Positions 6,432 through 26,591 of a stretch of DNA of 64,000 nucleotides are shown in pieces (position 1 is the stretch's first letter; the number at the start of each line of letters is the position of its first letter). The notes under the pieces are model-generated. The model had not been told where the DNA came from, did no database searches, and saw only the letters and a list, made by a program, of their open reading frames with translations. The stretch is from positions 4,340,001 to 4,404,000 of the forward strand of contig NZ_LT629688.1 in NCBI RefSeq assembly GCF_900101785.1, given 5' to 3'. The position numbers were made by a program, and so were the translations under genes. Source of the DNA: Auraticoccus monumenti. GTDB taxonomy: Bacteria > Actinomycetota > Actinomycetes > Propionibacteriales > Propionibacteriaceae.

Positions 6432-7220
6432 ATGCTGACCCGCCGGACCCTGCTCGGCGGGGCCGCGGCCGGGGCCGGCGCAGTGGTCCTGACCGGCTGC
6501 GGGGTGGGGGCCCAGGGGCCGGTCTCGCGGGAGCGCCCCACCTGCGTGGCCCGCGGCGAGCTGTCCCGGCTGGAGACGCTCGGCCCGGCGGCGCTGGTCT
6601 ACGAGGAGTCCGGCCGGCGGCAGTCCTTCGCGCTGGAGCCCGCCTTCGCCGAGCAGCTGCGGGCCTGGCTGACGTGGTGGGGCGAGCACTCCCCCGACGG
6701 CACCCCCGACGAGCTGTGGAGCTTCGGCACCTGGATCGACGGCCGCGGCGACTGCGGCTCCTGGCACCACGCCGGCCGCGCCCTCGACGTCACCAGCCTG
6801 CGCCGCGACGGGGAGATCTTGCACCCCGGGAGGATCGACCGGGTCGAGGCGCTGCCCGCCGGGGAGCAGGCGACGGCCCGGCGGCGGTACTGGCAGCTGG
6901 TCGCGGGGTTGTCGCTGCACTTCGCCGACGTCCTCAGCCACCTCTTCGACGACGCCCACCGCAACCACGTCCACGTCGACAACGGCCGCTCCGGGTCGGG
7001 GCCGGCGGTGTTCACCGGCCGCTCCCGGATCCAGACCCTCAACGTGCAGGCGGTCTGCCGGGAGGTGTGGCAGGTCCCCTGCGAGCTGAGCGGCGACTGG
7101 GACCGCGCGACCCGGGAGGCCGTGGCGGCGGTGCTGGACCCGCTCGGCCTCCCCGCCGACCTCCGCGAGGAGCCGTCCTGGCGCGCCTTCTGCACCGCCA
7201 GCGTCGAGCGCGGGGACTGA
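6432..7220 (+). CDS. Extensin-like (D,D-carboxypeptidase-type) lipoprotein
   Basis: 262-residue exported protein. The N-terminus MLTRRTLLGG...VVLTGC combines a twin-arginine-like start with a lipobox (LTGC), predicting a lipid-anchored extracytoplasmic protein. The mature part matches the extensin-like C-terminal/M15-like zinc peptidase fold: His/Asp pair in SWHHAGRALDVTSL and a distal HRNHVHVDN. A peptidoglycan peptidase role is inferred from the fold, not shown. The ATG is preceded by GAGG. Monocistronic; divergent from rpiB, followed by a palindrome at 7239-7282. Confidence 0.75.
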   Translation: MLTRRTLLGGAAAGAGAVVLTGCGVGAQGPVSRERPTCVARGELSRLETLGPAALVYEESGRRQSFALEPAFAEQLRAWLTWWGEHSPDGTPDELWSFGTWIDGRGDCGSWHHAGRALDVTSLRRDGEILHPGRIDRVEALPAGEQATARRRYWQLVAGLSLHFADVLSHLFDDAHRNHVHVDNGRSGSGPAVFTGRSRIQTLNVQAVCREVWQVPCELSGDWDRATREAVAAVLDPLGLPADLREEPSWRAFCTASVERGD

Positions 7221-7238
7221 GCACGGGTTCCCCCGCGC

Positions 7239-7282
7239 GCGGCGTCGATCGTGCACCGAACTCCGTGCACAGCTGACGCCGC
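7239..7282. repeat. Nested palindrome, upstream copy, flanking the AbiEi/DUF559-type gene
   Basis: Outer arms GCGGCGTC (7239-7246) and GACGCCGC (7275-7282), a symmetric 4-nt internal loop on each side, then inner GTGCAC arms (7251-7256 and 7265-7270). A similar element sits at 8308-8351 on the other side of the intervening gene. Aligned without gaps over 48 nt the two copies share 39 identities, with both stems conserved and the internal loops diverged. Immediately after it is CTGTCCACA (7282-7290), which resembles a DnaA box. Confidence 0.8.
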
Positions 7283-7334
7283 TGTCCACAGGTGACCGCC
7301 TCCCGGGGCTCGAGACGCCCACCGCTCCGATGGT

Positions 7335-8297
7335 GTGCTCGTGAGATCCCGCCACGACCCTCCCGATGCCCTCCTCTTCCTCGCGTCCCTGCAGGGCGGT
7401 GTGCTGACCCCGGAACAGCTGCAGGGGCACGGCCTCAGCCGACGCCCGGTCGACCGGCTGGTCAGCCAGCGGCACTGGTCGCGACCCGTGCGCGGCATCG
7501 TCTGCACCTCCGGCCAGGCGTCGTGGCTGGGCATGGCCTGGGCCGGCGTCCTGCTCGGCCCCGAGGGGTCACGTGTCGGCGGGCAGGCGGGGCTGCACCT
7601 GCACGGGCTCAGCGGGGAACCCGAGCAGATCGACGTCTGGACGCCCCGCGGTCGCCGGCTCCGGGTGGAGGGCCCCTACCGGTTTCGCGAGGAAGGTCCC
7701 GCGACCCACTCGGGGCGCACCTTCGGCAGCCCGCCGCACCTCGGGGTCGAGGACTGCGTGCTCGACCTCGCCGCTGAGCTCGACCAGGAGGACTTCCTCG
7801 CCCTGGTCATCGACGCGGTCCAGCGGCGTCGGACCACACCGTCACGGCTGTGCAGTGCGCTGGCGTGCCGACCACGGGCGCGGCACCGGGCCCTGCTCGA
7901 GGCGGTGCTGGGCGACGTCCGCGCGGGGGTGGAGTCACCGCTCGAACGGGCCTACCTGCACCGGGTGGAACGAGCCCACGGCCTCCCCCGCGGGCGTCGC
8001 CAGGTCCGTCGCGGGGGCTACCGCCGCGACGTGGTGCACGAGGAGCTCGGTCTGGTGGTCGAGCTGGACAGCCAGTGGCACGCCGGTCTGGCGCGGTTCG
8101 TCGACATGGACCGGGACAACACGGCCATGCTCGGCGGGCTCGTCACGCTGCGCTACGGCTGGGTGCACGTGGCCGGGGCAGCCTGCCGGACGGCCGCCCA
8201 GGTCGCCCAGGTGATGAGGGCTCGCGGGTGGTCCGGGACCCCGACGCGCTGCCGCAGCTGCGTGGCCGTGCCGGACGGTGACCTCTGGGCCGCCTGA
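7335..8297 (+). CDS. AbiEi-like antitoxin N-domain / DUF559 endonuclease-fold protein
   Basis: 320-residue soluble protein of a family common in actinobacteria. The N-terminus (about 10-60) resembles the AbiEi winged-helix domain (GVLTPEQLQGHGLSRRPVDR...WSRPVRGIV). The C-terminal region (about 215-300) carries a Vsr/DUF559-like nuclease core: ESPLERAYLHRV, then VVELDSQWHA followed by a DxDRDN-type motif (VDMDRDNTAML), with LVTLRYGWVHV as the last strand. Function unknown; proposed roles in the family are DNA cleavage or toxin-antitoxin control. Start GTG at 7335 or 7341. No toxin partner is adjacent. Both flanks carry matching palindromes. Confidence 0.7.
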   Translation: MLVRSRHDPPDALLFLASLQGGVLTPEQLQGHGLSRRPVDRLVSQRHWSRPVRGIVCTSGQASWLGMAWAGVLLGPEGSRVGGQAGLHLHGLSGEPEQIDVWTPRGRRLRVEGPYRFREEGPATHSGRTFGSPPHLGVEDCVLDLAAELDQEDFLALVIDAVQRRRTTPSRLCSALACRPRARHRALLEAVLGDVRAGVESPLERAYLHRVERAHGLPRGRRQVRRGGYRRDVVHEELGLVVELDSQWHAGLARFVDMDRDNTAMLGGLVTLRYGWVHVAGAACRTAAQVAQVMRARGWSGTPTRCRSCVAVPDGDLWAA

Positions 8298-8307
8298 GCG
8301 GACGACA

Positions 8308-8351
8308 GCGGCGTCACTCCTGCACCGATGTCGGTGCACGGGTGACGCCGC
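8308..8351. repeat. Nested palindrome, downstream copy
   Basis: Outer arms GCGGCGTC (8308-8315) and GACGCCGC (8344-8351) surround a perfect 8-bp inner stem TGCACCGA-tg-TCGGTGCA (8321-8338), separated by symmetric 5-nt internal loops. It starts 10 nt after the stop of the DUF559-type gene and lies between convergent genes, so it can also serve as a terminator. Same orientation and spacing as the copy at 7239-7282. Confidence 0.8.
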
Positions 8352-8375
8352 CGTCTCGCTGGAGGGCGAGGTCGA

Positions 8376-8990
8376 TCAGTCGAAGATCGGCCCGACGTCG
8401 CGGGTCCGCTTGAGCTCGAAGAAGCCCGGGTAGGCGGTGACCTTCTCGAAGCCGTCGAAGAGCTGACCGGCCTCCTCGCCCTTGGGGGCCGGGGAGATGA
8501 CGGGGCCGAACAGCGACTTGCCGTTGACCCGGACCACCGGGGTGCCCACCTCCGAGCCGACCGGGTCCATGCCCTCGTGGTGGGAGGCGCGCAGCCGGTC
8601 GTCGGCGGCGTCGGTCTCGCCCAGGTCGGCGAGCTCGGCGGGCAGGCCCACCTGGCCGAGCGCCTGCTCGATGGTGGCCCGGTCGTTGCGCTGCCCGCCC
8701 GGGTGGATCAGGGTGCCGACGGCCGTGTAGTACTCGCGCAGCGCGTCCGAGCCGTGCTGGTCCTCGATCCCGATGCAGACCCGGACGTTCGCCCAGGCGC
8801 CCGCCAGCATCTGCCGGTAGGACTCCGGGATGTCCTTGCCCTCGTTGAGGACGGCGAGGCTCATCACGTGGAACGTGGTGCGGACGGGCCGCACCTTCTC
8901 GACCTCGAGCATCCAGCGCGAGGTCATCCACGCCCACGGGCACTGCGGGTCGAACCAGAAGTCGACCTTCTTCACTTCGGTGTCAGCCAT
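8376..8990 (-). CDS. DsbA-family protein, Rv2466c-like mycothiol-dependent oxidoreductase
   Basis: 204-residue thioredoxin-fold protein with an inserted helical domain, collinear with mycobacterial Rv2466c ([20 protein letters not shown] at the N-terminus, [21 protein letters not shown] cis-Pro loop, FFELKRTR near the C-terminus). The family reduces nitro-compounds or disulphides using mycothiol. The motif here is C17-P-W-A, whereas Rv2466c, as I recall it, has CPWC, so only a monothiol mechanism seems possible. ATG start; monocistronic, convergent with the DUF559-type gene. Confidence 0.85.
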
Positions 8991-21708: not shown

Positions 21709-21760
21709 CTCGGCGTGTGCACTTCTGCTGCGTCGTCGCCGCCGACGTGCACACGCTGAG
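21709..21760. terminator. GTGCAC-containing hairpin between convergent genes
   Basis: A 14-bp stem with one G-T pair: 21709-21722 (ending GCGTGTGCAC) against 21747-21760 (GTGCACACGCTGAG), with a 24-nt GC-rich loop. It lies between the glucosidase and the convergent TPR gene and probably terminates both. Confidence 0.65.
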
Positions 21761-26311: not shown

Positions 26312-26380
26312 GCCCCCAACGTAACGCCGCCACCCCGCCCCGCCCTCACCCCAGCCACCCCGCGAACACCCGACCCAGTA

Positions 26381-26414
26381 CGACGTCCGACCGGGTACTC
26401 CCGGCCAGACGTCG
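26381..26414. repeat. Nested hairpin with symmetric internal loop
   Basis: CGACGTC (26381-26387) pairs with GACGTCG (26408-26414), and CCGGG pairs with CCCGG around a TACT loop, with 3-nt unpaired stretches on each side. About 70 bp upstream of the thiolase start; a regulatory site or RNA structure is possible. Confidence 0.55.
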
Positions 26415-26591
26415 CACGGGGAGCCAGGTAGCCGGTCACACCCAGGTAGCGGAACCGGCGCAGGACGTCCTAGCGCACCACCCGCGCGCGCTCACCCACC
26501 CGCAACCGCGCGGCACCCACCTCCAGCACAGCGGGACCCGCGTGGGCTCGCCCCACCGATCGAGCGGGTCACCCACCGCACCCAGGCAGGA

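Follow-up and report, generated by a model that had tools for sequence, protein, structure and literature searches.

What is a single nuclease-like gene doing between two copies of the same nested palindrome? The question is raised by a locus in a 64,000-nucleotide stretch of the Auraticoccus monumenti genome (hereafter, the window), where an initial annotation had been reminded of REP palindromes flanking their RAYT transposase, with a Vsr/DUF559-type protein in place of the transposase. REP-like palindromes are among the commonest non-coding repeats of bacteria. To our knowledge, their partners are HUH-type tyrosine transposases only, and some REP classes have no partner. AbiEi_4/DUF559 proteins, for their part, form a large orphan family whose members are annotated as antitoxin or as "unknown". 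The analysis described below suggests that the window holds a spreading palindrome, with a helper protein of its own, of a kind not described before.

Two nested palindromes enclose an AbiEi-DUF559 gene

The upstream 44-bp palindrome (7239..7282) and its downstream counterpart (8308..8351) are each built of an outer box, GGCGTC, and an inner box, GCACCGA, repeated in mirror order, with the common layout GCGGCGTC-N4-[G/C]TGCAC-N8-GTGCAC-N4-GACGCCGC. When 7239-7286 is aligned without gaps to 8308-8355 (the 44-nt elements plus 4 nt of flank), 39 of 48 positions are identical. Both elements fold better than all dinucleotide shuffles, whether as RNA (z -4.4 and -8.2) or as DNA (z -4.1 and -7.6). 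On the left, 18 nt (7221..7238) separate the unit from the stop codon of a gene for a Tat-signal, extensin-like protein (6432-7220, plus strand); on the right, 24 nt (8352..8375) separate it from the stop codon of a convergent mycothiol-dependent nitroreductase gene (8376-8975, minus strand), the product of which marks the genome as actinobacterial. Neither the palindromes nor these flanks are assigned to a strand.

The space between the elements is indeed taken up by one nuclease-like gene (7335..8297, plus strand), which starts with GTG and encodes a palindrome-associated protein of 320 amino acids; the downstream palindrome begins 10 nt past its stop codon. Profile matches place a putative AbiEi-like DNA-binding module at about residues 11-180 (7365..7874, plus strand) and a putative DUF559/Vsr-like nuclease domain at about residues 203-290 (7941..8204, plus strand). 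The PADLOC AbiEi profile matches residues 11-180 with an E value of 2.2e-9, a profile of the family matches the solved AbiEi-type chains 6y8q and 9hlo, and the DUF559 part gives a weak profile match (E 0.017) to the endonuclease-like structure 3hrl. Pfam-level matches are to AbiEi_4 and DUF559; a search of NCBIfam with the 320-residue protein returned no family above the cut-off. A two-domain AbiEi fold, consisting of a winged helix-turn-helix (wHTH) and a C-terminal domain, is thus predicted by profile, and the domain assignment as a whole rests on profiles because the alignment-free, single-sequence AlphaFold model is poor (mean pLDDT 38). Within the presumptive nuclease domain, E204, E212, H215, R222, Q223 and D232 are invariant in 25 homologues, and E243, D245, D257, R260 and D261 are kept in at least 90% of them. 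Conserved residues of this kind are what one expects of an active nuclease of the PD-(D/E)XK type; the pattern fits that expectation, and activity is predicted.

No gene for the AbiEii (DUF1814) nucleotidyltransferase toxin lies beside the AbiEi-DUF559 gene, whose neighbours are the two genes named above. A RAYT partner was considered and rejected, since the genome contains no match to Y1_Tnp (PF01797, the Y1/HUH transposase) in a search that detected its positive controls. No homologue was found on 72,556 plasmids, and a phage search gave one partial match to the protein, from which we take the gene to be chromosomal. The viral contigs searched held neither the palindrome nor a relative of the protein.

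A dispersed family of palindromes

A search of the 4,461,688-bp single-contig genome with the palindromic pattern gave 12 copies, as against 0-1 with a reversed-pattern control. This excludes chance as the source of the similarity between the two window elements, which the initial annotation had pointed out. A covariance model of the 44-bp palindrome added a 13th copy. The copies begin at genome positions 502354, 506080, 558308, 786406, 833226, 1064428, 1094138, 1094288, 1465663, 2603708, 3682293, 4347239 and 4348308, and their consensus is GCGGCGTCACTCCTGCACCGANNTCGGTGCAGGAGTGACGCCGC. The last two bracket the AbiEi-DUF559 gene; the other 11 of the 13, whose existence the initial annotation had proposed to check, are located away from it. 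By a simple codon-usage gene caller, all 13 are intergenic (5 in convergent, 5 in tandem and 3 in divergent gaps) and 10 of the 13 adjoin the 3' end of a gene. Several form close pairs. The genes next to them share no common theme.

The GGCGTC and GCACCGA boxes are nearly invariant in each arm, whereas columns 9-14 and 31-36, the two 6-nt spacers, differ from copy to copy and have lost their pairing. Departures from the consensus affect 8 of 312 cells in the boxes against 50 of 144 in the spacers, and 7 of 96 in those box columns that lie outside the search pattern. Boxes that are kept next to spacers that are free and unpaired suggest that the conserved sequence is a protein-binding site, more than selection on the fold alone would give; the boxes thus look like a candidate binding site. 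The proposal that stems are kept and loops differ because the folded form is selected stands as to the positions concerned but not as to selection on the fold, since almost no compensatory changes are seen.

The palindromes form strong, GC-rich hairpins (predicted energies, -25 to -39 kcal/mol) and mostly follow genes, as transcription terminators multiplied by chance duplication would. This explanation we regard as very improbable. The hairpins lack the T run (U-run in the transcript), three copies sit in divergent gaps, one palindrome of the pair lies upstream of its gene, and what is kept is sequence rather than structure; moreover, the sequences are genome-specific and agree with the two palindromes that enclose the AbiEi-DUF559 gene (see below). 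A terminating side effect of the palindromes is possible.

The main rival to a spreading palindrome is an autoregulated AbiEi-like regulator, or a nuclease silent on DNA, whose flanking palindromes would serve as operator and insulator while the dispersed copies, arisen by point mutation or chance duplication, would be regulatory or nucleoid sites. Conserved boxes with free spacers are what binding sites look like, and the promoter of AbiEi contains paired inverted repeats to which the protein binds (PMC7319586). The dispersed copies, taken alone, would fit the sites of a chromosomal DNA-binding protein equally well. The location of 10 of the 13 copies at gene 3' ends, with 5 in convergent gaps, is not that of promoters, however, and the lack of a theme among the adjoining genes likewise speaks against a regulon. 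We consider this rival unlikely, and further evidence on it is given in the sections that follow.

The family appears to be private to this genome. The 44-bp pattern, with up to 3 mismatches, was found in none of 56 relatives (one of them of the same genus), and a search across about 85,000 species genomes gave a single match, in Thermomicrobiales, which was rejected as a family member because it is an unrelated perfect hairpin.

Three weaker relatives occur in the same genome, at 1186705 (L030), 1465734 (L032) and 2200037 (L031). Their inner core, GCACCG-N4-CGGTGC, is that of the family, and their outer arms differ (GGTGACGATC, GGTGCAGATC). They are either old subfamilies or related palindromes.

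Homologous genes lie between palindromes of their own

The repeat shared by the upstream and downstream flanks of one locus was ranked against 930 mismatched controls, and at 28 of 31 homologue loci it came within the top 2%. Those controls that scored above homologue loci were mostly orthologous loci of sister species; the remaining three homologues (L092, L101 and L111) fell below this level. Clear nested palindromes, of a different sequence for each gene, are seen at about 20 of the 31; several distant homologues (L100, L102-L104) have imperfect ones only. A blind screen for palindrome pairs (40 nt, at least 80% identity) covered 968 genes, drawn from five further genomes in pieces of 20 kb. 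This strict definition was satisfied by 19 of the 31 homologues and by 2 of the 968 genes, and both of the latter proved, when recognised afterwards through Pfam, to be the two remaining AbiEi-DUF559 genes of the genome G018. By these sequence comparisons, the association of AbiEi-DUF559 genes with palindrome pairs is general.

The units so defined are uniform in build. They measure 1057-1198 bp (median 1107) and are bracketed by locus-specific palindromes of about 36-60 bp; the upstream palindrome ends at a median of 68 nt before the start codon, and the stop codon adjoins the downstream palindrome or falls within it (a truncated gene, L086, distorts the range of this last distance). The 68-nt leader is a promoter-like position for the upstream palindrome and in this respect suits the regulator hypothesis. 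The closest homologue (L084, 60% identity), from a genome of another genus (G015), likewise lies between two nested palindromes, and its unit has the Tat-signal gene of the window as its neighbour too, again at a distance of 18 nt. Its palindromes have the inner core TGCACCGAACT[C/G]GGTGCA in common with those of the window, and both of its copies carry GGGAGGG, not GGCGTC, as outer arms.

Solo palindromes follow the genes of their genome

Two paralogues in the window's own genome, L014 (1634409-1635344) and L015 (1898449-1899363), are each accompanied by a different palindrome family. The 44-bp type seemed to be missing at both, which by itself would make the DUF559 link look accidental; that reading was rejected because the two genes carry palindromes of other types. 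A solo copy of the L014 family lies in the window at 21715..21754 (minus strand), in a convergent intergenic gap 17 nt past a stop codon, and an intergenic solo copy of the L015 family lies at 26375..26420 (plus strand). The window thus contains solo members of a second and a third family.

Dispersed cognate palindromes were found in six other genomes and are always genome-specific. The genome G016 has 5 such copies in about 0.4 Mb, 87-98% identical, including near-identical copies of 46 bp; G019 has 4, plus tandem arrays with periods of 83 and 93 bp on both sides of its AbiEi-DUF559 gene (L109:934-1232 and 2391-2805); G018 has 3 of the L106 type and 1 of the L156 type; G001 has 2 (L123 and L052), G004 has 1 and G015 has 1 of the L084 type (GGGAGCC...). 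Controls made from complement palindromes gave 0 matches at 72% identity or more, and matches of any type across genomes numbered 0 in the sampled genomes. Within the sampled part of their genomes, the L096 type gave one weak dispersed match only, and the L085, L091, L107 and L148 types gave none (0.4 Mb sampled). Copy numbers range from about 13 to an extrapolated 45.

An even spread of the palindromes, like that of ordinary terminators and unconnected with DUF559 genes, had been named as the finding that would speak against a palindrome-protein system. The pattern across genomes is otherwise, because homologues in other genera are bracketed by pairs of their own and each genome has the palindrome type of the AbiEi-DUF559 gene that it carries. 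The pairs at homologues and the dispersed cognate copies together lend support to the REP/RAYT-like reading with a Vsr/DUF559-type protein. If the dispersed sites of a regulator arose by point mutation, one would expect neither the near identity of the 46-bp copies of G016 nor the tandem arrays of G019.

The G019 arrays are reminiscent of BIME arrays. One of the G016 copies (L173:17400-17760) stands directly 5' of a sequence (CGGGTTCGATCCCG...CCA) that resembles a tRNA 3' end; a tRNA at this site was rejected, as ARAGORN finds none and there is no complete tRNA gene.

Sister species and concerted change

Empty sites in relatives, another check proposed for this locus, were found in a sister species of the same genus (G001). 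The genes flanking the elements are present there (those used are mostly about 79-94% identical), and the elements are absent: the sister species has neither this gene type nor any of the 13 palindromes. At the window locus, 43 nt lie between its two stop codons, compared with the 18 + 24 nt (42) of flank here, as if precisely the stretch from palindrome to palindrome had been gained or lost. Since the unit occupies the same place in G015, a gain in the window's genome is no more likely than a loss in G001. For a set of regulatory sites, it would be hard to account for their absence from every orthologous gap in the sister species; together with the 3'-end positions and the near-identical copies, it counts against the regulator.

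The only close homologue in G001 is L086 (C9:489317-490036), whose match covers residues 3-239, after which the reading frame is lost; either damage to the gene or a sequencing error may be the cause. Its palindromes are intact and of another type. The inner core, GCTGCGACTNCGCAGC, is that of L014, its closest relative in the window's genome (56% identity) and a non-syntenic paralogue. Downstream of one orthologous gene, different palindrome types are found in G001 (L052:1722-1763) and in the window's genome (L008:1498-1541), the site being either a hotspot or one at which one type has replaced another.

Similarity of the inner cores follows protein identity over 19 palindrome types (Mantel rho 0.24, 12/2000 permutations), as a regulator and its sites would also predict; the whole 36-nt palindrome centre, for the same 19 types, shows no correlation with protein identity. 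The outer arms differ between genomes and agree among the copies of one genome. Fast change of the arms, in which all copies of one genome nevertheless keep in step, requires turnover of the copies. The gains or losses between sister species and the concerted change of the outer arms strongly suggest that the system is mobile or self-moving; the initial annotation had raised a domesticated or a self-moving palindrome-protein system as possibilities.

Mobility might reside in the whole 1.1-kb unit, as in an insertion sequence or a homing element, with the palindromes as terminal repeats acted on by the nuclease and the solo copies as remnants or targets. The compactness of the unit and its palindromic ends, its clean presence or absence (43 nt against 18 + 24 nt) and the existence, within a genome, of several paralogues at non-syntenic places whose cores are related (L014 and L086) all fit such an element. 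We nonetheless hold it to be improbable. There are few paralogues (3 in the window's genome and 4 in G018), they are only about 45-50% identical and each is provided with its own palindrome, suggesting that full units, unlike solo palindromes, have not been multiplying recently. The common position in the window's genome (G000) and in G015 suggests long residence rather than hopping, and none of the units is on a plasmid. No convincing target-site duplication stood out above shuffled pairings at the 13 copies, and no target consensus was found there either. Some mobile elements make no target-site duplication.

A probable case of a palindrome that spreads with a helper protein

What the locus contains is, probably, a compact palindrome-plus-protein unit of about 1.1 kb that would work in the manner of a REP/RAYT "REPtron" by means of an unrelated enzyme. 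With somewhat greater reserve, we are inclined to place it in a class of selfish, REP-like systems that would have evolved independently of the first and would be widespread in Actinobacteria, in which an AbiEi-nuclease fusion would recognise and spread its own palindrome of 40-50 bp while arms and specificity co-evolve.

Two monomers of the AbiEi antitoxin are reported to bind a pair of 23-bp inverted repeats with 3 bp between them (PMC7319586). From these paired repeats and the bipartite arms of the 44-50 bp palindromes, we infer that the AbiEi-type module would bind the palindrome as a dimer, one monomer to each arm. An arm measures about 21-23 bp, with roughly one turn of the helix between its inner and its outer box. 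The upstream palindrome could double as an autoregulatory operator. The Vsr-like nuclease would then nick or cut at the palindrome, whereupon palindromes would be copied into new intergenic sites by repair or strand transfer, so that the copies would evolve in concert with the protein. Binding of the protein to its own palindrome is likely and well supported by this reasoning; that its nuclease drives the copying is less certain. RAYTs have been proposed to copy REPs into new sites by a different chemistry (PMC2817692, PMC8266576).

The parallels with REP/RAYT systems (PMC2817692, PMC3116915, PMC8266576) are extensive: a copy of the palindrome stands on either side of the gene; cognate palindromes are intergenic, dispersed and species-specific, their type changing with the protein; arrays occur; and the elements are chromosomal and lie mostly beside gene 3' ends. 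The differences are that an AbiEi module with a DUF559/Vsr-like nuclease replaces the Y1/HUH transposase, that the palindromes are longer (36-60 bp) and symmetric, that neither the 44-bp copies nor the other families share a GTAG (or CGTC) foot tag, and that copy numbers are lower than those of classical REPs. The system thus resembles REP/RAYT in its apparent function and lacks the enzyme that defines that class, having an unrelated one instead. The open-access literature searched contains nothing that links DUF559 or AbiEi to dispersed palindromes, REPs or transposition.

CGTC-tagged REPs are also dispersed palindromes, and for them, too, the search for a partner has turned up no Y1 transposase; they carry the tag at one end, have another structure and occur mostly in Alphaproteobacteria (PMC3733652). 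Compared by description, they differ from the present palindromes, where CGTC occurs inside both arms of one family only. Type IV AbiEi antitoxins resemble the protein in having an N-terminal wHTH followed by a second domain, and their site of about 49 bp is similar in size to the palindromes. Here, however, no AbiEii toxin gene is present, the module is fused to a nuclease, and the palindromes are found on both sides and dispersed. DUF559/Vsr-like endonucleases (PF04480; 3hrl) share the conserved acidic/histidine motif ELDG..H...D..RD; the difference lies in the fusion to AbiEi and the pairing with palindromes. Integron attC sites were rejected by inspection, the palindromes having no GTTRRRY/RYYYAAC core.

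If this reading is correct, a nuclease of unrelated fold has its own dispersed palindromes, meaning that a REP-like life style arose more than once, and the orphan AbiEi_4/DUF559 family acquires a function. The roughly 20 natural pairs of protein and cognate site would also provide material for studying how specificity changes.

A shorter and more distant DUF559 protein of 273 amino acids is encoded elsewhere in the window's genome (at 2494245; L114:901-1719). Both of its flanks carry a common repeat of about 70 bp or more with inverted arms, and the association with palindromes may accordingly reach beyond the AbiEi_4 clade.
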